This document shows positions 13,579 to 24,750 of a DNA stretch of 43,742 bases, one piece after another. The stretch lies in contig NZ_BCNS01000165.1 of assembly GCF_001528745.1 (NCBI RefSeq), positions 1-43,742 on the forward strand, read 5' to 3'. The translations under genes were made by a program, and so were the position numbers. This stretch comes from Marinobacterium profundum (lineage in GTDB: Bacteria; Pseudomonadota; Gammaproteobacteria; Pseudomonadales; Balneatricaceae). The notes beneath the pieces are model-generated. The model had not been told where the DNA came from and did not search any database. It saw only the letters and a list, made by a program, of their open reading frames with translations. The first letter of the stretch is position 1. Each line of letters begins with the position of its first letter.

Positions 13579-13798
13579 CAGACCGGCTCCTTTTGCTTGG
13601 GAGGCTGGACGAAAAGCCCGATGGTAACGGGTTGGCTTGCCGCCGTGAAGTAGTGTCTGTTTCCGGGTATTGCCTGCGCGGGTTGTCGTTTTGATGTCAT
13701 TGATTGTCGATTGAGTGCCATCCTGACCGGGGCGCTTCGCCTTAAACTCGTGCAGAGGCTGTCGCCTGGGCAGCTGCAACGACGTTAGGAACAGAGAC

Positions 13799-14977
13799 AT
13801 GATCGACAACAGTGCTGCTTTTGAAACCGCAGGCTACGGCCGTTACCCCGTGTCCCATCTGCCGCTTCGCATCGAGACGGGCCCCGAGTCTCTGCGTCTG
13901 GTCTGGGACGATGGCCGCGAGAGTGAGTTTCACTACCTGTGGCTGCGGGACAACTGTCCCTGCGCGAGCTGCGTATCCACGCTAACACGGGAGCAGCTGT
14001 TCGAGATCTGTGATGTGTCGCTGTCTATTCAGCCCTCGGAGGCGCGGCTGGATGACGACTATCTGACCATTCAGTGGCTGGGTGACGGACACAGTAGCCG
14101 CTTTCATCCCGGCTGGCTGCGCACCCATTGCTACAGCGAGCAGGCCCGGGCAGAGCGGCAGTGGCAGCCCGAAATTTGGGACAAGGCCGCGATCGAAGTC
14201 TGCCTGCCCAAATACGATTACGCCGACATGATGCAGGATGATGCAGTTTTACTGCGCTGGTTGCGAAAGCTGCGTGATTGTGGCATTTCCCTGCTGCAAA
14301 ATACCGATACAAGACCCGGCACTCTGCAGCAGGTGGCCGAGCGTATTTCTTTTATTCGGGAAACCAACTTCGGCACCCTGTTCGATGTGCGCTCCAAGCC
14401 CGATGCCAATACAGCGGCCTACACCACTTTGCGTCTGCCGCTGCATACGGATTTGCCGACACGGGAGCTGCAGCCTGGCCTGCAGTTTCTGCATTGCCTG
14501 GAAAATGATGCCAGCGGTGGCGAGTCGATTCTGGTGGATGGCTTTCGCATTGCCGAGCATATGCGTGAAGAATATCCCGACGACTTCGCTGCTCTCAGTC
14601 GCCTGCCGATGGATTTTTACAACAAGGATCGCAACAGCGATTACCGTTTCCGCGGGCCTGCGCTGGTGCTTGATGGTCAGGGGACTGTGATCGAGGTACG
14701 TTTTGCCAACTTCCTGCGGGGCCCGCTGGATGTGCCGGCCGATCAGGTAGTGCGGCATTATCGCGCCTACAGTACCTTTATCCGCCTGACCCGCGAGCCT
14801 CGCTTCCAGTTTGAATATCGTCTGGTGCCCGGCGACCTGCTGGTGTTCGATAACCGACGTGTGCTGCATGCGCGCCGCGCATTTGACCTGCAACAGGGCC
14901 AGCGTCATCTGCAGGGCTGCTATGTCGACCGTGACGAACTGCTGTCTCGCATTCGGGTGCTTGAACGCAGTCTATAG
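13799..14977 (+). CDS. gamma-butyrobetaine dioxygenase
   Basis: 392 residues. It is an Fe(II)/2-oxoglutarate-dependent dioxygenase that hydroxylates gamma-butyrobetaine to L-carnitine. The N-terminal zinc-binding DUF971 domain shows CPCASC (Cys53, Cys55, Cys58) and His103 in RFHPGWL. The TauD-like catalytic domain shows the iron triad as His216-x-Asp218 (LHTDLP) and His357 (LHARRAF), with RxF/R residues for 2-oxoglutarate nearby and the ending RHLQGCYVDRDELLSRIR typical of the family. AGGA lies 9 nt before ATG 13799. Trimethyllysine dioxygenase is the closest alternative, but bacterial context beside carnitine genes favours gamma-butyrobetaine. Monocistronic, convergent with the regulator gene at 15043. 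Confidence 0.9.
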   Translation: MIDNSAAFETAGYGRYPVSHLPLRIETGPESLRLVWDDGRESEFHYLWLRDNCPCASCVSTLTREQLFEICDVSLSIQPSEARLDDDYLTIQWLGDGHSSRFHPGWLRTHCYSEQARAERQWQPEIWDKAAIEVCLPKYDYADMMQDDAVLLRWLRKLRDCGISLLQNTDTRPGTLQQVAERISFIRETNFGTLFDVRSKPDANTAAYTTLRLPLHTDLPTRELQPGLQFLHCLENDASGGESILVDGFRIAEHMREEYPDDFAALSRLPMDFYNKDRNSDYRFRGPALVLDGQGTVIEVRFANFLRGPLDVPADQVVRHYRAYSTFIRLTREPRFQFEYRLVPGDLLVFDNRRVLHARRAFDLQQGQRHLQGCYVDRDELLSRIRVLERSL

Positions 14978-15010: not shown

Positions 15011-15048
15011 TTGGGTTACGACCCTGCGGGCCTGCACCCAACCTACAT
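15011..15048. repeat. dispersed REP-like repeat
   Basis: TTGGGTTACG...CCTGCGGGCCTGCACCC followed by AACCTAC. Its reverse complement recurs, with changes, at 20279-20310 (GTAGG, TGCAGGCCCG, GGCGTAACCCAA). It lies between two convergent genes and overlaps the last codons of the regulator gene at 15043, a usual setting for REP-type sequences. Confidence 0.6.
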
Positions 15049-16128
15049 GGTACTGGTACTACGTCTTTGCTCCCCCGGTGTCATGTCGAAATGACGCCGG
15101 TAGCTGCGACAGAAGTGCGATGCGGATGCAAAGCCGCAGGCACCGCCCACCTCACACACACTCAGGTCCGTTTCCTGCAGCAGCTGCCGGGCGCGTTCGA
15201 GGCGCAGCCTCAGGTAATAGGCCGATGGCGATGCATCTAGAAAGCGCTGGCACAGACGTTCCAGCTGACGCAGGGAGATAAAGGCGCTGCGGGCCAGGTC
15301 CGCCGGCGTCAGGGGCGTTTCGATGTGCTGCTCCATCAGGCCCAGTACCCTGATCAGGCGTGGATGATGAATGTTGAGCTGACGCGGCAGGCCTATGCGT
15401 TGTTGATCCGAGGGCGGGCGTATGCCGTTCTTGATGCACTGATCACAAATCTGCAGTGCCAGTGCTGTGCCTGATTGTTGCTGAATCAGGTGCAGCATCA
15501 TGTCGGTGGCGGCTGTGCCGCCGGCGCAGGTGATGCGGTTGCGGCCGATTTCGAACAGTTCCGGGCTGATCAGAATGTCGGGGTAGGTTTCCTGGAATGC
15601 CGGTACGGCTTCCCAGTGCAGCGTGACCCTGTGGCCTTTGAGCAGGCCTGCACGGGCCAGCAGGTAGCAGCCGGTATCCAGCGCGCCCAATAGGCTGTTG
15701 CGCCGATTCAGGCGGCGTAGCCAGTCGACAGCTTCAGGGCTCTGATGGCGCTCGGGGTGAAAGCTGGCATTGACGAACAGATTGCGCGGCGTTTCGACCT
15801 TATGCATGTCCAGGTGCGTTTGCAGCGCCATCTGATTGCTGGCGACTACGGCCTGGCCATTTTCGCTCAGGCATTGCCAGCGATACAGCTCACGACCTGC
15901 CAGGCGGTTGGCGATGCGCAGTGGCTCTATGGCCGACAGCAGCGACACCATGGCGTATTCCGGCAACAGCAGAAAGGAGACAGTGGTAACGCCGTCAGCA
16001 TCGGGATGCAAAATGGGGGGCACAGTGGTTGCCACGGCAGGGCCTGCAAGTACCGGCGTTTTTGCGGTGGCTGAAGAGGTGCCTTGTGTGGCGGTTCTGG
16101 ATTGGGTAGAGAGTGCGGATGGGTGCAT
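15043..16128 (-). CDS. cdhR: GlxA/AraC-family regulator, carnitine cluster (CdhR/GbdR type)
   Basis: 361 residues with a DJ-1/PfpI-like glutamine-amidotransferase-type sensor domain (about 45-215; FLLLPEYAMVSLLSAIEPLR, GALDTGCYLLARAGLL) and a C-terminal AraC helix-turn-helix pair (about 255-350; SLRQLERLCQRFLDASPSAY and VCEVGGACGFASASHFCRSY). In Pseudomonas, CdhR and GbdR of this family sense carnitine or glycine betaine and activate catabolic operons. The N-terminal extension of about 40 residues resembles GbdR in length. GGGAG stands 5 nt before ATG 16128. It is the last gene of the minus-strand operon BKACE-dehydrogenase-BCCT-regulator, so it is probably self-activating. Confidence 0.88.
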   Translation of the reverse strand: MHPSALSTQSRTATQGTSSATAKTPVLAGPAVATTVPPILHPDADGVTTVSFLLLPEYAMVSLLSAIEPLRIANRLAGRELYRWQCLSENGQAVVASNQMALQTHLDMHKVETPRNLFVNASFHPERHQSPEAVDWLRRLNRRNSLLGALDTGCYLLARAGLLKGHRVTLHWEAVPAFQETYPDILISPELFEIGRNRITCAGGTAATDMMLHLIQQQSGTALALQICDQCIKNGIRPPSDQQRIGLPRQLNIHHPRLIRVLGLMEQHIETPLTPADLARSAFISLRQLERLCQRFLDASPSAYYLRLRLERARQLLQETDLSVCEVGGACGFASASHFCRSYRRHFDMTPGEQRRSTSTM

Positions 16129-16226: not shown

Positions 16227-17888
16227 TTAGTCGCTCTGGGTCACAGGGCGTGGAGCTGGCACCGCACCCGACTCTTGCCACAGGGATTTCAGTACCCCGA
16301 AGGTCATGGCCAGAATGACCAGGCTCAGGGGCAGTGCTGCGGCCATCAATGCGGTTTGCAGGGCGCTCAAGCCCCCGGCCAGCAGCAGTACGGCGGCGAC
16401 CAGGCCAATGACCAGGCCCCAGAAGATGCGGAACAGTTTTGGCGGCTCGTCATTGCCCAACGACAGTATAGTGGTCAGCACCAGGGTGCTGGAGTCCGAT
16501 GAGGTGACGAACCAGCTCATCAGCAGGAACACCATCAGCGCCGAGATGATCCAGCCCAGGGTGCCTGTGCCTGCGATGCCATCGGAGCTGGCGAAGAGTG
16601 CCGCAGGCAAATTCCAGGCATTGACCAGATCAATCAGGCCGGCCGTACCGGGGCCGCCCGTAGCGTGCAGTTCCTGCCACAGGGCCGTGCCACCAAAAAT
16701 GCCCAACCAGATAAAGATCACCAGGGTTGGAACCAGCAGCACGCCGAGAACAAATTCACGCAGGGTGCGGCCACGGGAAATGCGGGCTATAAACAGGCCG
16801 ACAAAGGGAGCCCAGGCCAGCCACCAGCCCCAGTAAAATACGGTCCAGCCATTCTGCCAGGCTGCGGGGCCCGCTTCTTCCGGGAACCAGAGACCCATCT
16901 GCACAAAGTTGGCCAGATAATCCCCCAGGGATTCGGCAAAAACGCTCAGTAGCCAGCTGGTGGGGCCTGCGAACAGAAAGAAGCCGATCACCAGCACCGA
17001 GATAATGATGTTCCATTCGGAGATGATCTTGATTCCGCGGTTAACGCCGGAGATGGCCGACAGAATCGAGATAACGGAAATGACCGCGATCAGTATCAGC
17101 TGGGTATTGAGGCCAGGATCCACGCCGATCAGGCGCTCAAGCCCTACCGACATCTGGCTGACGCCAAGTCCCAGGGAGGTGGCGACGCCAAAGACGCAGC
17201 CCAGCACGCCGAGCAGGTCGACTACATGGCCGATGGGGCCGTAGATACGATCACCAATAAAGGGGTAGAGCGCGGAGCGCAGTGCCAGCGGCAGTTTCTT
17301 GCGGTAGGCGAAGTAGGCCAGTGACAGGCCAACGATGACGTAAACGGCCCAGCCGTGGAAGCCCCAGTGGAAGAAGGTGACGCGCAGCGCATCGACCGCG
17401 CGGTCGTGGCCGATGGCGGTGGCGCCGGCCATGTCGGCGTAGGGGTTGTTGGGGTAGCCAAAAGCGCCGCTGTTATCGAGGTAAAAGATGGGCTCGGCGA
17501 CGCCAAAAAACAGAATGCCAATACCGATACCGGCGGAAAACAGCATCGAGAACCAGGAAAAATTACTGAATTCCGGGCGGCTGTCGTCATCGCCCAGGCG
17601 GATACGCCCGTGGCGGCTGAATACGATGTAGCAGCAGGTGGCGATCAGGAAAACGATGGTGACCAGGTAGTACCAGCCAAAGGTAGCTTCGATCCAGCTG
17701 CGGGCACTGCCAAAAATACTGCTGGCAAGCTCCGCATTGAGGCCGGTGAAAAGTACGAAGGCGAGAACCAGGCCTGCTGCGGCCAGAGTCATGCCTTTGT
17801 GCATGTCTTTGAAAATGCCCTCGCGGGCCAGGGAGTCGGCCCTGAAAACGGGGCTGTCACTCTCTGGACTTTGTTGTTCTATCGACAT
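16227..17888 (-). CDS. BCCT-family betaine/carnitine/choline transporter
   Basis: 553 residues, twelve transmembrane segments, with the full BCCT signature: FYWGWWLAWAPFVGLFIARI in helix 8 supplies the tryptophan box that holds trimethylammonium groups. GWAVYVIVGLSLAYFAYRKK lies in helix 4. I start at ATG 17886-17888, since GGAG lies 9 nt upstream. A GTG at 17945 would add 19 residues but its AGGAG is only 3 nt away. Sodium- or proton-coupled import of carnitine, gamma-butyrobetaine or betaine is expected. It lies 118 bp after the carnitine dehydrogenase gene on the same strand and shares its operon, so carnitine is the most likely substrate. Confidence 0.92.
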   Translation of the reverse strand: MSIEQQSPESDSPVFRADSLAREGIFKDMHKGMTLAAAGLVLAFVLFTGLNAELASSIFGSARSWIEATFGWYYLVTIVFLIATCCYIVFSRHGRIRLGDDDSRPEFSNFSWFSMLFSAGIGIGILFFGVAEPIFYLDNSGAFGYPNNPYADMAGATAIGHDRAVDALRVTFFHWGFHGWAVYVIVGLSLAYFAYRKKLPLALRSALYPFIGDRIYGPIGHVVDLLGVLGCVFGVATSLGLGVSQMSVGLERLIGVDPGLNTQLILIAVISVISILSAISGVNRGIKIISEWNIIISVLVIGFFLFAGPTSWLLSVFAESLGDYLANFVQMGLWFPEEAGPAAWQNGWTVFYWGWWLAWAPFVGLFIARISRGRTLREFVLGVLLVPTLVIFIWLGIFGGTALWQELHATGGPGTAGLIDLVNAWNLPAALFASSDGIAGTGTLGWIISALMVFLLMSWFVTSSDSSTLVLTTILSLGNDEPPKLFRIFWGLVIGLVAAVLLLAGGLSALQTALMAAALPLSLVILAMTFGVLKSLWQESGAVPAPRPVTQSD

Positions 17889-18006
17889 TCTAGTGGTCTC
17901 CGATGAGCCATGATTTTGGGCAAGGTCAGTGCTATATGGATACACAATCTCCTGAGTGTTAAACGCACAAGGCGTGACGGCAGGGCTCTGTCGTCACGCC
18001 GTTATT

Positions 18007-18975
18007 TCAGCGGCGGATGCCGTGTTCGTCGCGGTATTCCTGCAGCGTTTGCATGATGCGGATCAGGCAGTCGTCACGTTCCTGGATCAGGTCGTTGATC
18101 GAGGCGCCATTGGCCTGGGTCAGACAGCCGGCGACCATATCGTCTTTGAGCTGCTGCGTCAGCTCGGGTGCTTCCAGTCGGGTCCAGGGTTCTTTGAGGG
18201 AGTCCTCAAAATGGTCCAGCAGGTGCGCCATGCCGCCTTGTCCGCCGCCCAGGTGGTAGGTCAGGCAGTGGCCCATGATGGCCCAGCGCAGACCCGGCCC
18301 GTAGGCGATGGCCTTGTCGATGTCTTCAACCGAGCATTCATTGTTGGCCACCATGTGCAGGGCTTCGCGCCACAGGGCTTCCTGCAGGCGGTTGCCGATA
18401 AAGCCCGGGAGTTCCTTGTCCATCTTGGCGACCTGTTTCTCGATCGCTTCGTAGAAGGCTGCGGTCCAGTCGACCACTTCCTGGCTGGTGCGCTTGCCGC
18501 CACAGACTTCGCAAAAAGGCACCAGGTAGGGCGGGTTGAACGGGTGACCTACGACGAAGCGGTCGGCCTGGTGTTGTACTTCAACGGCCATGTCGGACAT
18601 GGCAAAACCCGAGGTGCTGGAAATGATCACCACTTCCGGCGGTGCCAGGCGATCGAGTTCGACGAACAGGGCGCGCTTGGCTTCGAGGTTCTCCGGCGTG
18701 CTTTCCTGAATCACTTCGACGCTGTTGACCAGCTCTTCCAGGCTGTCGGCAAATCGCAGTCGCTGCGGGCTGGCACCTTCGCGCAGGCCGAGTTTCACCA
18801 TGGTTGGCCAGATATGGTCCACCATCGCCAGCAGTTTTTCGCGCGCATTGGGGCCTGGATCATAGGCGACCACATCCATGCCCATTCTCAGAAAGTGCAG
18901 CGCCCAGGCGCCGCCGATAACGCCGGTGCCGAGTACGCCGGCCTTGGTAACTTCAGTAGGTAAGGGACGATTCAT
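18007..18975 (-). CDS. cdhA: L-carnitine dehydrogenase
   Basis: 322 residues of the 3-hydroxyacyl-CoA-dehydrogenase fold. GVLGTGVIGGAWALHFL is the NAD-binding Rossmann glycine motif at about residues 13-29. HPFNPPYLVPFCEV carries the HPFNP active-site block with catalytic His, and WREALHMVANNECSVEDIDK and AYGPGLRWAIMG lie in the C-terminal helical domain. This combination is typical of L-carnitine 3-dehydrogenase (L-carnitine + NAD+ to 3-dehydrocarnitine), not of fatty-acid enzymes. It sits directly after the BKACE gene, 44 bp away, and before the BCCT carrier. It is the second gene of the operon driven from the 20018-20102 module. Confidence 0.93.
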   Translation of the reverse strand: MNRPLPTEVTKAGVLGTGVIGGAWALHFLRMGMDVVAYDPGPNAREKLLAMVDHIWPTMVKLGLREGASPQRLRFADSLEELVNSVEVIQESTPENLEAKRALFVELDRLAPPEVVIISSTSGFAMSDMAVEVQHQADRFVVGHPFNPPYLVPFCEVCGGKRTSQEVVDWTAAFYEAIEKQVAKMDKELPGFIGNRLQEALWREALHMVANNECSVEDIDKAIAYGPGLRWAIMGHCLTYHLGGGQGGMAHLLDHFEDSLKEPWTRLEAPELTQQLKDDMVAGCLTQANGASINDLIQERDDCLIRIMQTLQEYRDEHGIRR

Positions 18976-19019: not shown

Positions 19020-19910
19020 TTACTGCGTGCCGCGCAAACGCAGCTTCTGGCGGGCTTCATTCGGGCTCAGAATGCGTGAGCCCATGTTCTCGACGATATT
19101 CACGGCACGCTCGACCAGCTGGCCGTTGGTAGCGAATTCGCCCTTGCCCAGGTAGAGGTTGTCTTCCAGCCCAACGCGGACATGGCCACCCAGCAGCGTT
19201 GATTGTGCCGCCCAGGGCAGCTGCTTGCGGCCCAGGGCAAAGGCGGTCCAGTTGGTGTTGGCCGGCAGCATGTCGACCATGCCCTTGAGCAGGCTCAGTT
19301 CCGGCGGAGTGCCCCAGGGGATGCCCTGGCACAGCTGGAACATGGCGTTGTCGTTGATCAGGCCTTCCTTCATCATCTGCAGCGCGAACCAGAGGTTACC
19401 GGTATCGAAGATTTCCAGCTCGACGGTGACATCCAGCTGCTGGATGCGGGCCGCGGCCTTGCGCAGCATGTCCGGCGTGGAGATGTACACCAGGTTGCTG
19501 TCGCCAAAATTGACCGAACCGCAATCCAGGGTGCAGATCTCGGGCTTGAGTTCTTCGATATGCACCAGACGCTCAAGGCCGCCGACCAGGTCGGTTTCGG
19601 GGCAGAAGGCGGTTGGGTTTTCTTCCGGGCCTATATACAGATCGCCCCCCATGCCGGCGGTCAGGTTGATGATGACGTCGCAGTCGGCGGCCCGCAGGCG
19701 CTCGCAGACTTCGGCGTACAGATCCAGGCGACGAGAGCACTGCTTGGTTTCGGGGTCGCGCACATGCATGTGGGCAATGGCGGCACCGGCGTTCCAGGCC
19801 TCAATGGCGGCATCGGCGATCTCTTTCGGCGTGACAGGCACATGGGGGCTGCGGTCGGCTGTATCGGCGGCGCCGGTAACAGCGCAGGTGATGATGACGT
19901 CCTGATTCAT
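19020..19910 (-). CDS. cdhC: 3-dehydrocarnitine cleavage enzyme (BKACE/DUF849 family)
   Basis: 296 residues of the beta-keto acid cleavage enzyme family, a TIM barrel with zinc. AHMHVRDP carries the two zinc-binding His residues, [13 protein letters not shown] carries the conserved Glu-Asp pair near the C-terminus, and [11 protein letters not shown] lies between. Family members condense a beta-keto acid with acetyl-CoA and release acetoacetate. With a carnitine dehydrogenase next door the expected reaction is 3-dehydrocarnitine + acetyl-CoA to betainyl-CoA + acetoacetate. First gene of the minus-strand carnitine operon; the shared promoter module ends 108 bp before its ATG. Confidence 0.92.
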
Positions 19911-20017
19911 GGCAATTCTGACTCTTGAAGTGTTTTGTTGTAGCGCCGGTGCTAGACCTAAGAGATCTTCGGTGCGCCCGGCTTGTGACTAAAGTTACGC
20001 GGATGAATGGGATGTTT

Positions 20018-20102
20018 TTGTCTGAAATCGCAGCTTAATTGCCTGTATGCGATTAGCCTTTCTCACTGACGTAATTGGATAAGACGAGTCTGTTTGCGAC
20101 AG
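20018..20102 (-). promoter_or_regulatory. shared carnitine promoter module, copy 1
   Basis: Upstream of the BKACE operon. Going from the gene outward (plus strand): TTGTCTGAAATCGCA (20018-20032), TGCGA (20048-20052), CTGACGTAA (20066-20074) and TTGCGACAG (20094-20102; the 13-mer CTGTTTGCGACAG spans 20090-20102). The same elements stand at the same spacings (15, 13 and 19 nt gaps) at 22936-23020. The half-sites share a TCGCA/TGCGA core in alternating orientation, as expected for a dimeric AraC-family activator. Which of the two GlxA/AraC regulators binds is not determined. Confidence 0.75.
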
Positions 20103-20504
20103 TCACAAGGGCGAGGGGCGAGGTGAAAAGCAGGTGCGAGGGGCGAGGTGAAAGGGACGAGGGAGCGAAGGGCAAGGCAGTTCGTAGCCTGGAATGAGCG
20201 AAGCGAATTCCGGGAAAAGAGCGAAACGAGTTTCGAGGGTAAAGCAGAAGCAAGGGGTGAGGCGAGGAACCCAACCAGGTAGGTGCAGGCCCGACGGGGC
20301 GTAACCCAATAATTGTCGTAACACAGCGCTGAGCCACCGATTGATGGGTTACGCTGCGCTACATCGCATCCTACTGTTAGGAAGTGGAGCCACGGGTAGG
20401 ACTGCAAGGAGCAGGCCTGATGTTCGCTACGAATAACGGCTTTTTAACCACCAGCGCAGCGCCGCTTGCCCTGCCAGTACAGCTGGGCAAACGACGCCCA
20501 ACGC
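20103..20504. repeat. gene-free stretch with repeats
   Basis: An 18-bp direct repeat GCGAGGGGCGAGGTGAAA occurs at 20111-20128 and 20136-20153, with a decayed third copy near 20250-20267. It is followed by a mosaic: GTAGCCTGGAATGAGCGAAG around 20187-20206, and a REP-like segment at 20279-20310 matching 15011-15048 in inverse orientation. Short open frames here are repeat read-through without ribosome sites. Confidence 0.6.
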
Positions 20505-21911
20505 TTAGTTGGATGCAGGCATATCAGCCGGTACCGCGGCGGGCTGCTGTGCCTGTTTATTGCGCCGGATCAGCAGCAGGAAAGCAGTACCCAAGGCAAA
20601 GATGCCGAAGGCGACCGGAATGGCGGCGACCGAGATCAGTGTCAGTATGACTTTGAAGATATCGCCGTCCAGCCAGTTGATGACCACGGCCAGGGCGGCC
20701 ATGGCGACAATCCAGAAGGCGCGCGAACGTGGCACTGTAAGCATTTCGCATACCAGCCCGGCCGAGTCTGCGCTGGTGACGAAGAACAGCAGGAGGTTGA
20801 TCGCCAGTATGGCCGAGAGTATGCCGTAGCTGTCGAGCGTGGTCATCAGCGTGAACACATCCTCGGAGCCTGTTTCAAGTCCGGCCAGGCCGAAGACGGT
20901 AAACCAGAGGCAGGAGAACAGGCTGGGTACCAGCATTACGCCCAGTACCAGCTGGCGTAGAGTGCGGCCTTTGGAAATGCGCGCGATGAATATCCCGGTG
21001 AAGACAAACCAGCCGTACCAGGATGCTTCGAAGGCATAGAGCCAGTCGGCGAGCCAGGCCTTGCGCTCCGGATCGCCCAGGCCAATGTCGGTAGCCATTG
21101 CCGGGTAGCTCAGAAGATATTCCGGTAGCAGTCGGCCAAAGGTCGTGAGGATTTCGCCCGGATTGGTCAGCAGGAAAACGCTGATCATGAGGCCAACGGC
21201 GAGCAGGGTGTTGTAGTTACTCAGCCACTTGATGCCGCGATTCAGCCCTGAGGTGCTGGAGGCAATGGCGAAACAGGACAGCACCAGGATGATCAGAGTC
21301 GTACTGACGTCGACCCCCAGGTACTGCGAGACGCTCTTTTGCAGTGGCGCGGCGGCGTAGGAAAAGGTCAGAGAAAGACCGATGACCGTCGAAACCACCA
21401 GACTCACCAGGTTCAGTTTGCTGAGGAAACCGCCGCCCAGCAGCGTCTCGGCGGGTTTGGCGATATTCAGGTTGTACATGGCGTGGGCGAAGATCACACC
21501 TATGGCCAAGTAGCCGGCCCAGGCCAGCAGACCCCAGTGGTTGAAGGCATAGAGCAGCGCCTGGTCGGTACTCTGGCCTGCCTCGACATGGTAGCGCGGT
21601 TCCAGTACGCCCCAGGTAAGAAGGCCGATACCCATGCCCGTGGCGAACAGCATCCCAAGCCAGCTCAGGGTGGAGAACTCCGCCGGGCCCTCGCCAAAAC
21701 GCAGGCGCCCCAGGGGTGTGAACATCAGGATAACGAAGCCCACCGAGACGGCGAAGGCCGGGTAGGTGAAGATAAAGCCCAGATTGCCGATGACGTTGAC
21801 CTTGATGGCATCGAGCAGAAACTGGAAGGTATTGGGGGCCAGGGTCGCGAATCCAATCAGCCCAACCACCGTAAGGATGGTCGCTATGCTGGTACCGAGG
21901 TTCTGTTTCAT
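20505..21911 (-). CDS. second BCCT-family transporter (divergent)
   Basis: 468 residues from ATG 21909-21911, which is preceded by AGGAG 8 nt upstream; about twelve membrane segments. BCCT membership is shown by GIFIARISKGRTLRQLVLG and SSTSGLNRGIKWLSN. The helix-8 tryptophan box is altered: where ordinary carriers read YWxWWxxWxPF, this one reads FEASWYGWFVF, keeping two of four tryptophans. Helix 4 reads NHWGLLAWAGYLAIGV. It is about 85 residues shorter than the other BCCT protein here, mainly at the termini. Substrate is probably a quaternary amine other than, or in addition to, carnitine. It lies about 110 bp after the hydrolase gene, same strand, one operon. Confidence 0.88.
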   Translation of the reverse strand: MKQNLGTSIATILTVVGLIGFATLAPNTFQFLLDAIKVNVIGNLGFIFTYPAFAVSVGFVILMFTPLGRLRFGEGPAEFSTLSWLGMLFATGMGIGLLTWGVLEPRYHVEAGQSTDQALLYAFNHWGLLAWAGYLAIGVIFAHAMYNLNIAKPAETLLGGGFLSKLNLVSLVVSTVIGLSLTFSYAAAPLQKSVSQYLGVDVSTTLIILVLSCFAIASSTSGLNRGIKWLSNYNTLLAVGLMISVFLLTNPGEILTTFGRLLPEYLLSYPAMATDIGLGDPERKAWLADWLYAFEASWYGWFVFTGIFIARISKGRTLRQLVLGVMLVPSLFSCLWFTVFGLAGLETGSEDVFTLMTTLDSYGILSAILAINLLLFFVTSADSAGLVCEMLTVPRSRAFWIVAMAALAVVINWLDGDIFKVILTLISVAAIPVAFGIFALGTAFLLLIRRNKQAQQPAAVPADMPASN

Positions 21912-22021
21912 GAAGATCTCTCCTGTTGCCATTGTCGTTATTTTTGAGCACAGGCGACATCAGTGACGCCGCATCCCTGCGCAGCTTGAGTGCCGGTGCT
22001 TGGCCGGTTAGGTCGGTGGGG

Positions 22022-22840
22022 TTAGTCCAGGCGCTGTTTGAGTGCCGCGCAAAACTGCCGCCAGGCGTGCGCCATTTCGGGCAGTGACTCCCGTGCGTGC
22101 AAACAGCCGTGCAGCATGTTGGGCGCCAGGTGATAGCCGACGTCGGCACCGCCTGCGCGCCAGGCCTGGATGGCGCTTTCCAGCGGAGCGGTTAGCGGGT
22201 CTAGCTCCACCGCCAGTACTTCAATGCGCTTTGCAGGCGGCTGGTGGCCGTTACCGGGAGGCGCGTCATCCCCGATGAGTGCCCAGGCCGCCAGAATATC
22301 CTCGCGGCTGAGCAGCGGCGCATCGGGCCCGAGGTTCGCTAACGTTGGTACACCCACCAGTGGATAGATGAGCCCCAGTAGCGGAACCAAAGGGGCGCCA
22401 GCTAGGGCATCCAGAATCAGGCGGGCACCGGCGCTGTCGCCAACCAGAGCAACAGGATCGCTGGCAAAGATTACCCGGCGGCAATCGTCAAGCACCTTGG
22501 AGTAGCGTGCATCCGGCATCAAGGGGTAGCCGATACTCAGAACCTCGCGTTCAAGTGCCTGTGCCAGACCGGCGGCGACACCCTGGTGGCTGTCCAGTGA
22601 CCCCAGGCTGTAGCCGCCACCGTGCACGTAGATCACAGTCCCCGGCCTGCATAGTGCAGGGCGGTGGCGGCGAACGGGTACTGTTGCAATGTATGTGTCG
22701 CTCAGGGTCATGCCGGTGGGAAGCTGTGGGGCAAAGGATGCACAGAGGCCGTCGTAGTGGCTGCGTGCAGCCCCAGGCGACATGCTGGCCATGGCATCCA
22801 GGCCAGCCTGGAAATGTTGCTCGAAGGTGGCGATGTCCAT
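22022..22840 (-). CDS. alpha/beta hydrolase, possible O-acylcarnitine esterase (HocS-like)
   Basis: 272 residues of the hormone-sensitive-lipase-like alpha/beta hydrolase branch. YVHGGGYSLGSLDSH is the oxyanion-hole motif, VGDSAGA contains the nucleophile Ser, VLAVELDPLT the acid Asp region and NMLHGCLH the catalytic His near the C-terminus. I start at ATG 22838-22840, with AGGAAA 8 nt before it; upstream frame to 22894 is unlikely. In P. aeruginosa an alpha/beta hydrolase (HocS) in the carnitine operon releases carnitine from short-chain acylcarnitines. The same role is inferred here from its place in a carnitine-type operon with a BCCT carrier. Confidence 0.8.
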   Translation of the reverse strand: MDIATFEQHFQAGLDAMASMSPGAARSHYDGLCASFAPQLPTGMTLSDTYIATVPVRRHRPALCRPGTVIYVHGGGYSLGSLDSHQGVAAGLAQALEREVLSIGYPLMPDARYSKVLDDCRRVIFASDPVALVGDSAGARLILDALAGAPLVPLLGLIYPLVGVPTLANLGPDAPLLSREDILAAWALIGDDAPPGNGHQPPAKRIEVLAVELDPLTAPLESAIQAWRAGGADVGYHLAPNMLHGCLHARESLPEMAHAWRQFCAALKQRLD

Positions 22841-23179
22841 GCTGGCGTTTCCTGTGCGGTGCCGCTGATGAGGGTGTCCGGTGTGTTGTAACACCGGCGA
22901 TGGATACTTAACTTACGTGGCTTATCCCAGCGTGGTTGTCTGGAATCGCATCTTTATTGTCAATTTGCGAATAATTTTGCGCGCTGTCGCAAGCAGGCAA
23001 GAAGTACCTGTTTGCGACAGGGTCGCGCCGTTTTTCTGCGTTCGGCAGGTATTTTTGGCGCCAGAAGGTTGCCGCAACGCCGGAGTTACACATCGCCTCG
23101 AGCACCCGTTTGGGTGCAGCCGGCTGGCAACAGCAGGACGCTCCGCGGCGCCCCTAGCAGGCGATTATTACCGCCGGAT
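22841..23179. other. intergenic regulatory region
   Basis: About 340 bp between the start of the hydrolase gene and the stop of the second GlxA/AraC gene. It holds the promoter module at 22936-23020; no gene seen in the rest. Confidence 0.6.
22936..23020 (-). promoter_or_regulatory. shared carnitine promoter module, copy 2
   Basis: Upstream of the hydrolase-BCCT operon: TTGTCTGGAATCGCA (22936-22950), TGCGA (22966-22970), CTGTCGCAA (22984-22992) and TTGCGACAG (23012-23020). The last pair is a perfect 9-bp inverted repeat with a 19-nt gap, and CAGG/CCTG form an inner pair. On the minus strand TTGACA (complement of 22958-22963) is a consensus -35, while the -10 is poor, as expected for an activated promoter. 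The module begins 96 bp before the hydrolase ATG. Spacing of all elements equals copy 1. Confidence 0.78.
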
Positions 23180-24136
23180 TCAGCGTTCCCGGCTGGGATT
23201 TTTGGCAAAGCGCTGCTGGTAACTGCGGGTGAAATGGGACAGGGAGACGAAGCCGCAGGCGACTGAAATGTCGGTGACGCTCTGGCTGGTTTGCTGCAGC
23301 ATCCAGCGCGCCTGATCCAGGCGCAGGTTGCGGTAGTAGGCGCTGGGGGTCTGTTGCAGGTAGTGGCGGAACAGGCGCTCGAGTTCACGCCCGGAGAGCT
23401 GCAGCTGGGTTGCGATTTCGCTGATGCGCAGCGGCTCCTCCAGGTTGTGTTCCATCAGTTGCACGGCCTCAACCAGGCGCGGATTGCGGCTGTCCAGGCG
23501 CTTTTGTATCGAGGTGCGCTGGGGATCGCTGTGGGCGCGCTTGTGGGTGTAGATCAGCTCGTCGGCAACCGTAGTCGCCAGGCCATTGCCGTGCTGGGTG
23601 CCGATTAAATAGAGCATCATATCGAGCCCCGACAAAGCGCCTGGGCAGGAAAAGCGGGCGCGATCCACTACCAGCAGTTCCTGCACAAAGGCCACTCGGG
23701 GAAAGGCCTCGGCGGTCGACTGCAGGTTCTCCCAATGCAGGGTGGCGCGGTAGCCATCAAGGATGCCGGCCGCGGCGGCAATGTAGGCGGCGGTGTCCTG
23801 GCAACCGATGTCGGCGCCATGACTGGCCTGCTGGCGGATAAAGCCCAGCAATGCCGGTGTGATGCGCGCCTGGGGGTCGTAGCCTGCGCAGATAATCAGG
23901 GTGTCGCAGGCGGGAGTCTCGCGAATGCCAGCATCGCTCATGATATCAAGATTGTCGCTGCTGGCGACCAGGCCACCTTTTTCTGAGATTAGCTGCCAGC
24001 GGTACAGCTCGCGGTTGCTGCTGTGATTGGCGTGGCGCAAGGGATCGAGCATCGCCGTCAGGCCGAACAGCGAGAAGCCTGGAATCAGCAGAAAGCTGAT
24101 GGTTTGCGGGTAGGTGCGGGGGCGGTCTCCAAACAT
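23180..24136 (-). CDS. second GlxA/AraC-family regulator
   Basis: 318 residues from ATG 24134-24136. The DJ-1/PfpI-like sensor domain opens ISFLLIPGFSLFGLTAMLDP and includes DIGCQDTAAYIAAAAGIL. The AraC DNA-binding part (about 215-310) shows LSGRELERLFRHYLQQTPSA and VTDISVACGFVSLSHFTRSY. A GTG at 24175 could add 13 residues but has no ribosome site. It is divergent from the thioesterase gene (131 bp between starts) and lies directly upstream of promoter-module copy 2. This is the same family as the regulator at 15043, so the cluster has two paralogous candidate activators. Which one corresponds to CdhR and which to GbdR cannot be told by eye. Confidence 0.87.
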   Translation of the reverse strand: MFGDRPRTYPQTISFLLIPGFSLFGLTAMLDPLRHANHSSNRELYRWQLISEKGGLVASSDNLDIMSDAGIRETPACDTLIICAGYDPQARITPALLGFIRQQASHGADIGCQDTAAYIAAAAGILDGYRATLHWENLQSTAEAFPRVAFVQELLVVDRARFSCPGALSGLDMMLYLIGTQHGNGLATTVADELIYTHKRAHSDPQRTSIQKRLDSRNPRLVEAVQLMEHNLEEPLRISEIATQLQLSGRELERLFRHYLQQTPSAYYRNLRLDQARWMLQQTSQSVTDISVACGFVSLSHFTRSYQQRFAKNPSRER

Positions 24137-24267
24137 GGATGCGCTGAGTCCTGGGCTGTTTTGGTGAAAACGCACATTTAATAAGCGGATTCAGGCAAGT
24201 TTTGTGGGGCGGACGGGTTAGCATTGCCCAAAAGACGCGTCGGCGCAATCCCAATCAGAGGTGCAAG

Positions 24268-24750
24268 ATGACAACTGAACTCACCGTGTTCGAGGGGCCC
24301 GTTCAGCCCGAGTGGATCGATTACAACGGTCATATGAACGATGCCTGCTATGTGCTGGTCTTCAGCCAGGCGATCGACGAATTCATGCTGCAGATTGGGC
24401 TTGATGCGACCTTTCGTGAGGCGCATCAGGTCTCGATCTATACGCTGCAGAGCATGGTGCATTACCTGCAGGAAGTGAGCCTGGATGAGCCACTGCGGGT
24501 AGAGGCGCGCTTGCTCGAAAGTGACGCCAAAAAACTGCGGGTCTTTTTTACCATGCGTCATGGTGAAACCGGTGCAGAACTGGCGGCGATGGAAACCCTG
24601 CTGCTGCATATGGACATGGCGGCACATCGCGCCGCACCCATGCTGCCTGACACCGCGGCGCGGGTCGAAGTGCTGCAGCAGCGCCACAGTGACGCTGCCT
24701 GGCCGGCGCTTGCCGGGCGCAGCATTGCCCTGACGCGGCCACGAGGCTAA
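24268..24750 (+). CDS. cdhB: betainyl-CoA thioesterase (hotdog fold)
   Basis: 160 residues of the 4HBT hotdog thioesterase family. EWIDYNGHMNDACYVLVFSQ carries the DYNGHMN active-site motif, followed by the central helix and the strands SIYTLQSMVHYLQEV and LRVEARLLESDAKKLRVF. ATG 24268 has GAGG 6 nt upstream; the frame back to 24202 has no support. In carnitine degradation a thioesterase releases glycine betaine from betainyl-CoA after the BKACE step. Position between carnitine genes and divergence from a GlxA/AraC regulator support that reaction here. Other short acyl-CoA substrates cannot be excluded. Confidence 0.82.
   Translation: MTTELTVFEGPVQPEWIDYNGHMNDACYVLVFSQAIDEFMLQIGLDATFREAHQVSIYTLQSMVHYLQEVSLDEPLRVEARLLESDAKKLRVFFTMRHGETGAELAAMETLLLHMDMAAHRAAPMLPDTAARVEVLQQRHSDAAWPALAGRSIALTRPRG

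Follow-up and report, generated by a model that had tools for sequence, protein, structure and literature searches.

The 43,742-nt stretch of Marinobacterium profundum DNA analysed here (contig NZ_BCNS01000165.1; "the window") contains two 85-bp modules, A (20018-20102) and B (22936-23020), upstream of two carnitine-type operons, one headed by a cdhC-type beta-keto acid cleavage enzyme (BKACE) and the other consisting of an alpha/beta hydrolase and a BCCT transporter (HYD-BCCT2). Each module is likely to act as a promoter of rigid layout that depends on an activator and belongs to a carnitine regulon, in which R2, a GlxA/AraC-type (GATR) regulator encoded in the same cluster, would act on a direct repeat of two half-sites, C1 and C2. 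The positions, repeat structure, spacing and conservation of the sites, the genes that bear them and their co-occurrence with R2 were read directly from the DNA; binding, the ligand, the direction of regulation, the -10 hexamer and start site, and everything said of the binder of a further element, U, are predictions from it.

Two related modules in the window

The modules are identical at 60 of 85 positions without gaps. The next-best 85-mer match of either module on both strands of the window reaches 43 of 85 (between module B and the reverse complement of its own region), with a mean of 21 and a standard deviation of 4. In a blastn search of the 5.64-Mb genome with module A, module B was recovered with an expectation value (E) of 1.2e-4, the remainder being fragments with E>1. 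The genome-wide search for the spaced inverted pair, suggested in a preliminary description of this DNA, found it at two places only, namely the two modules, and the strict spaced pattern gave no match in six other genomes of the genus. The elements named in that description lie exactly where it placed them: TTGTCTG(A/G)AATCGCA at 20018 and 22936, TGCGA at 20048 and 22966 (after 15 nt), CTG(A/T)CG(T/C)AA at 20066 and 22984 (after 13 nt) and TTGCGACAG at 20094 and 23012 (after 19 nt), with 108 and 96 bp from module to start codon. Its statement that little else is conserved has to be revised, since a second box, GRCAA, is present in all four half-sites and CGTAA[CG]TTwAGT recurs at equal distance downstream, beyond the 85 bp. 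Low-complexity repeats resembling GAGGGGCGAGGTGAAA lie immediately upstream of module A (20103-20300), and similar ones occur in two genomes of the genus, G001 and G004.

The probable core operator

Read in the sense of the operons (minus strand), the promoter-proximal pair of half-sites repeats TCGnATTTnGGCAA in direct orientation at a period of 21 bp (C1 and C2, Table 1), and 20 nt past the repeat the aligned relatives carry TAACTT or a variant of it. The pair had earlier been parsed as part of four alternating TCGCA half-sites; this parse was rejected because the alignment of relatives gives a direct repeat, and the TGCGA reading is a coincidence that arises because CG is palindromic. The geometry appears similar to that of class II AraC-type promoters, with the downstream half-site at the -35 position and a constant distance to the putative -10. 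As C2 occupies the place of the -35 box, and a 21-bp direct repeat is the known arrangement of CdhR and ArgR, activation through contact with the polymerase would be the best reading.

The minus-strand leaders extend over 19911-19990 and 22841-22905, and those of the aligned loci are mostly 65-86 nt long. A stem-loop of varying sequence is predicted near the putative start in most leaders (in copy B, CCGGTGT...ACACCGG). A strong conserved RNA hairpin in the leader was considered and rejected, folding being only slightly more stable than that of shuffled sequences (mean z of -1.05, with 15 of 33 below -1).

Conservation of the core in relatives

The BKACE promoters of 36 relatives were aligned (34 from the 77 loci and two from additional genomes of the genus); those of the remaining loci, including Streptomyces and distant metagenome-assembled genomes, lie outside the alignment, and the highest score among 11 Streptomyces loci used as negatives was -18.5. 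Some named loci and family genomes are the same (e.g., locus L038 is genome G003), and the locus and family counts therefore overlap. Of the 36 promoters, 31 show a recognisable core, strong in 28, weak in two and shifted by one base in one; it is doubtful in Oceanobacter and Aestuariicella, and was not found at the BKACE promoter of two Idiomarina and one Pseudomonas. The layout is thus conserved ahead of orthologous operons, as the preliminary description would have it, and it extends over at least four families, with labels including Oceanospirillaceae, Balneatrichaceae, Aeromonadaceae and Vibrionaceae. A TA-initial hexamer occurs exactly 20 nt downstream in all 31 aligned cores, a count that is not fully independent because the profile that placed the sites includes the -10. 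C2 retains CG in 30 and [CA]AA in all 31, and C1 retains CG in 21. The distance from hexamer to start codon is 79-91 nt in 29 cores and 65 and 96 nt in the other two.

When all members of the genus concerned were withheld from training of the profile, 25 of 28 BKACE sites ranked first and three second on both strands of their loci, figures which overstate independence because the loci are related; the three second-ranked loci each contain another site of the regulon, which presumably outranked that of BKACE. Trained without Marinobacterium, the profile placed its best sites in the window at 20052 (49.7), 22970 (11.9) and 24164 (-1.9), i.e., at the BKACE, HYD-BCCT2 and thioesterase promoters, followed by an unrelated place at -3.0. 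With the core model, copy A was found in its own genome at E 5.8e-11, the next match being at 0.135. In the model searches over 44 sources, the sites used for building match by construction, and the window is the independent case.

Genes and extent of the proposed regulon

In addition to the two operons, a copy of the core precedes the thioesterase gene, divergent from R2. The preliminary description had found no copy there, which holds for the full module but not for the core; it was missed because its first half-site is weak. In 24 of 32 R2-bearing loci, the core at the thioesterase promoter scores at least 13 (the 99th percentile of random stretches taken from these loci being 6.7), and TAnnnT is found at 20 nt in 27 of the 32. 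These loci exclude two of Pseudomonas with a 42-43% identical regulator, and the R2 and thioesterase genes do not adjoin one another in L058.

The core also precedes HYD-BCCT2 in Zobellella (weak), Oceanimonas, Oceanisphaera arctica and genome G004. Photobacterium carries an extra copy facing a set of ABC transporter genes that includes an OpuAC-type binding protein, and Parahaliea one facing a TonB receptor and a BCCT gene. Across 20 genomes of related loci, all 19 core matches with E<1e-3 fall inside known loci (14 BKACE, two HYD-BCCT2, one thioesterase, one ABC transporter and one TonB-BCCT promoter). Matches with E of 1e-3 to 0.5 were mostly treated as chance, and five of these weaker ones coincide with known sites, namely the thioesterase promoters of L055, L060, L062 and the neighbour set of L064, and the TonB site of L090. 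The regulon is therefore narrow, as had been proposed, since matches stay inside pathway loci; it is nevertheless wider than the two operons to which it had been confined, by at least the thioesterase.

The close relative G001 (L163) lacks HYD-BCCT2 together with its module, unlike the window and G004 (L164), and its BKACE is about 100% identical (rounded) to that of the window, pointing to gain or loss of the cassette with its promoter. In Marinobacterium rhizophilum (G003), BKACE is 96% identical.

Table 1. Sites, genes and regulators of the carnitine cluster in the window (-10 hexamers are predicted)
Feature	Position	Strand	Basis or remark
C1 half-site, copy A (TCGCATACAGGCAA)	20039-20052	-	Aligned relatives, profile
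C2 half-site, copy A (GCGATTTCAGACAA)	20018-20031	-	21 bp from C1
Putative -10 hexamer TAACTT, copy A	19992-19997	-	20 nt after C2; geometry in relatives
C1 half-site, copy B (TCGCAAATTGACAA)	22957-22970	-	Missed by cmsearch
C2 half-site, copy B (GCGATTCCAGACAA)	22936-22949	-	
Putative -10 hexamer TAAGTT, copy B	22910-22915	-	20 nt after C2
Thioesterase core operator	24164-24198	+	Weak C1 24164-24177; strong C2 24185-24198 (GCGGATTCAGGCAA)
Putative -10 hexamer TAGCAT, thioesterase	24219-24224	+	20 nt after C2
U, copy A, CTGTCGCAA...TTACGTCAG	20066-20102	-	37-bp inverted repeat upstream of BKACE operon; same place in relatives
U, copy B, CTGTCGCAA-N19-TTGCGACAG	22984-23020	-	Perfect 9-bp arms
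Dioxygenase direct repeat (second flavour), TGTCGTTTTGATGTCA-N5-TGTCGATTGAGTGCCA	13684-13720	+	TAAACT at 13743-13748
R1, GlxA/AraC (GATR) regulator	15043-16128	-	HTH_18 over cut-off; DJ-1_PfpI just below; GbdR-like below cut-off
R2, GlxA/AraC (GATR) regulator	23180-24136	-	HTH_18 over cut-off; DJ-1_PfpI below; proposed C1-C2 activator
BKACE (cdhC type)	19020-19910	-	PF05853
L-carnitine dehydrogenase-like (cdhA type)	18007-18975	-	3HCDH; top NCBIfam match L-carnitine dehydrogenase, below cut-off
BCCT1 transporter	16227-17945	-	PF02028
HYD, alpha/beta hydrolase	22022-22840	-	PF07859
BCCT2 transporter	20505-21932	-	PF02028
Thioesterase (cdhB type by position)	24268-24750	+	4HBT_2; divergent from R2
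Gamma-butyrobetaine dioxygenase	13799-14977	+	TIGR02409 over cut-off

Candidate regulators of the core

A GATR regulator is encoded beside the operator, and in the relatives surveyed R2 is likewise encoded close to this promoter. The earlier proposal of a shared operator for an AraC/GlxA-type protein akin to GbdR and CdhR is supported, as far as sequence can indicate. The genome encodes four proteins of this type: a GbdR orthologue (over cut-off), R1, R2 and a fourth. The last (G000:C1:29305-30276) stands on a long branch of the regulator tree. Among 116 genomes of the family, a strong core (E<1e-6) occurs in 15, all of which possess R2 (23 carriers); this co-occurrence has a hypergeometric probability of 1.8e-13, which is uncorrected for relatedness and stems partly from linkage, because R2 is inside the cluster. 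Core matches in G032, G102 and G115 (E of 0.004-0.009) were treated as chance. In the tree, R1 and R2 are apart and the two cdh-linked Pseudomonas proteins fall outside both clades; the root and some of the deep forks are weakly supported. We infer, as the simplest assignment, that R2 serves the core and R1 the dioxygenase promoter.

Several observations weigh against the assignment of R2 to a rigid core promoter, in addition to this linkage and to the incomplete independence of the hexamer count. R1 (at least 54% identity; 21 carriers in the 116 genomes) accompanies the strong core in 12 of the 15 genomes as well, and eight of the 23 genomes with R2 have no strong core. The CG of C1 is lost in 10 of the 31 aligned cores, two cores are weak (L045 and L058) and one is shifted by one base (L062). 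In the window itself, copy B is missed by cmsearch with the core model and the thioesterase site is scarcely above background (-1.9 versus -3.0). Finally, the arms of U fit neither the C1/C2 profile nor that of the dioxygenase promoter.

The U element

Across relatives, the consensus of the U inverted repeat is TGTCGCAAACAGATA...TATCCATTTGCGACA. A cmsearch of 43 loci and the window detected it at copy A and the BKACE promoters of 16 relatives, at copy B and the HYD-BCCT2 promoters of three relatives, and nowhere else up to E 10; it was not found at thioesterase promoters, nor at the core promoters of Amphritea and others. In the own genome, the U model recovers both copies (E of 2e-5 and 1.6e-4), the next match being at 0.82. 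Matches in G074, G080 and G003:C18 (E of 0.003-0.006) were treated as chance. The distance from U to C1 is identical in 18 of 19 pairs in relatives and in both copies of the window, Balneatrix having one additional base; in the window copies, CG dinucleotides lie at 0, 27, 47 and 68, and CGTAA at 99.

On the C1/C2 profile, the U arms score a mean of 1.4 bits (38 arms), compared to 14.4 for the 60 C1/C2 arms that trained the profile. Because of these poor scores, U and C1/C2 are not demonstrably one kind of site, and U as a further half-site of the C1/C2 or dioxygenase type is not supported. Neither is U a direct repeat of the same GATR half-site, being an inverted repeat. Assignment of U to R1 by co-occurrence is likewise unsupported, as G008, G014, G020 and G069 have core and R1 with no U match, and G035 (71% complete) has U with no R1 of at least 54% identity.

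Two other readings of U were considered. In the first, which we regard as somewhat unlikely, U would be a feedback site for glycine betaine acting through GbdR. The GbdR orthologue of the genome is consistent with it, as is P. aeruginosa, in which the carnitine operon is subject to repression by glycine betaine and the CdhR site is overlain by bound GbdR (PMC5806209). A further point in its favour is that the betaine BCCT gene near gbdR is preceded by TGTCGTAAAAAGAATA-N5-TGACG, the first arm of which resembles the U arms. Against this, GbdR-like candidate sites are few and both of the clear ones are direct repeats, and no additional place in the genome is picked up by the U profile. A GbdR-type direct repeat is seen before a betaine BCCT gene on contig C158 of the same genome (L211, minus strand, 6724); ahead of it stands a long inverted repeat, TTGCGACAGTTACCGA...TCGGTAACTGTCGTAA, which overlaps its first half-site.

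In the second reading, one regulator would serve all four sites, shifting between U and C1-C2 with its ligand as a compact AraC-like switch that needs no long loop. The fixed U1-U2-C1-C2 spacing of the window, the near-constant distance from U to C1 in relatives, and the TCG and same-place G common to all arms would fit such a switch, and AraC provides a precedent in its change from araI1-araO2 to araI1-araI2 (PMC4760080). The disparity of the arm scores and the core promoters with no detected U, those of the thioesterase and Amphritea among them, make this reading unlikely.

The dioxygenase promoter and the probable role of R1

The gamma-butyrobetaine dioxygenase gene, adjoining R1, is preceded by a direct repeat of a second flavour, with its own 21-bp period and a consensus across relatives of TGTCGnnTnGGTGCAA-N5-TGTCGAyTnGGTryCA. 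The repeat scores at least 20 in 21 of 24 promoters, with a TA-hexamer 22 nt on in 21 of 24; the window was left out of training for this profile, and G001, identical there, was included. The arms of the two flavours prefer their own profiles (41 of 42 for the dioxygenase and 59 of 60 for the core), these being the arms that trained the profiles; the dioxygenase profile of this comparison omits three of the 24 promoters (L041, L042 and L059). The first half-sites of the two Pseudomonas cdh loci fit the dioxygenase profile better (13.0 and 12.8 versus 4.6 and -1.2 on the core), and the second half-sites are poor on both (3.9 and -3.6 versus -8.0 and -12.6). Since R1 adjoins a dioxygenase gene with this different flavour, to which the first half-sites of Pseudomonas are better matched, R1 probably reads the dioxygenase repeat.

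It is quite improbable that R1, as the counterpart of CdhR, binds the core instead of R2, or that both do so. The presence of R1 with the core in 12 of 15 genomes speaks for such a role, and by tblastn the regulator of the Pseudomonas cdh loci is nearer to R1 (48 and 46%) than to R2 (42 and 43%); the regulator tree, however, leaves the CdhR orthologue unsettled between the two. A strong core occurs with no R1 of at least 54% identity in G034, G035 and G054 (the latter with a 47% relative), R1 occurs with no strong core in nine genomes (G011, G012, G019, G022, G036, G104 and G112-G114), and the half-site flavour of the adjoining dioxygenase differs. That the two modules represent a recent functionless duplication, for which their common cluster and orientation and the single module of G001, devoid of HYD-BCCT2, might be cited, is hardly credible, as both modules also occur in G004, where they share 72% identity, and module A keeps boxes and spacing at only 42-62% identity to the modules compared from other genera.

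Proposed mechanism

With R2 as the activator of the core, a dimer would bind the C1-C2 direct repeat, its downstream half-site replacing the -35 box. With carnitine or a catabolite as the signal, R2 would then recruit RNA polymerase to the TAACTT or TAAGTT hexamer. R2 would also activate the divergent thioesterase gene through the copy with the weak first half-site, and it may control itself, since that copy begins 28 bp before its own start codon. U would be an extra site, confined to the cdhC and HYD-BCCT2 promoters; it lies 13 nt upstream of C1, turned to a similar side of the helix, and would most likely be occupied by a second GlxA/AraC dimer (R1, GbdR or R2 itself) that would tune both promoters. 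It is conceivable, though we hold it loosely, that the whole forms a two-input device of fixed geometry, combining a carnitine-type GATR protein on a class II direct repeat with GbdR or R1 on the adjacent inverted repeat, wherein paralogues with diverged half-sites would split the pathway into separate branches for the core, the thioesterase, transport and the dioxygenase.

Relation to known systems

The footprinted CdhR site of P. aeruginosa is GGTCGC-N15-GGTCGC, and the caiX-cdhCAB-hocS promoter is there called class I, with a start site 25 nt before caiX (PMC5806209). Like that operator, the one described here combines carnitine pathway genes, the same protein subfamily, a 21-bp direct repeat and a TCGC core. 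In contrast, the repeat ends here 20 nt before a -10-like hexamer, an inverted U is added, and there are two paralogous regulators with separate thioesterase and dioxygenase promoters. The Pseudomonas ArgR protein, also of the AraC family, recognises a repeated TGTCGCN8AAN5 (PMC4997734). C1/C2 and the dioxygenase repeat share with these sites a two-box half-site, TCG followed by AA at equal distance, and a 21-nt period, but C1/C2 mostly lack the leading TG and favour ATTTnGGCAA, and the genes are different.

Apart from work on CdhR of P. aeruginosa, our literature search, partial in coverage, turned up no publication on this promoter, and such absence is not proof. In contrast to araBAD, the AraC-controlled promoter, the auxiliary site here is an inverted repeat lying next to the core; a distant looping site was neither sought nor noticed. 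The likeness lies in a proximal pair of half-sites (araI1-araI2) that recruits polymerase, with auxiliary sites upstream (PMC4760080).

In two Pseudomonas cdh loci, a CdhR-type repeat, GGTCGC-N15-GGTCGC, lies between the regulator and the next gene (L066 at 6810 and L081 at 6524), followed 21 nt on by TAGCTT or TAGCGT. This suggests a class II geometry at these loci, where the published reading for P. aeruginosa is class I, and raises a doubt, from two other Pseudomonas loci, about the class assignment of the caiX promoter that can be checked. The two operator flavours separated here may be assignable by binding to two paralogous sensors. More generally, the sequence of the core delimits a carnitine regulon in several families of marine Gammaproteobacteria, for which an activator and transcription starts are predicted.

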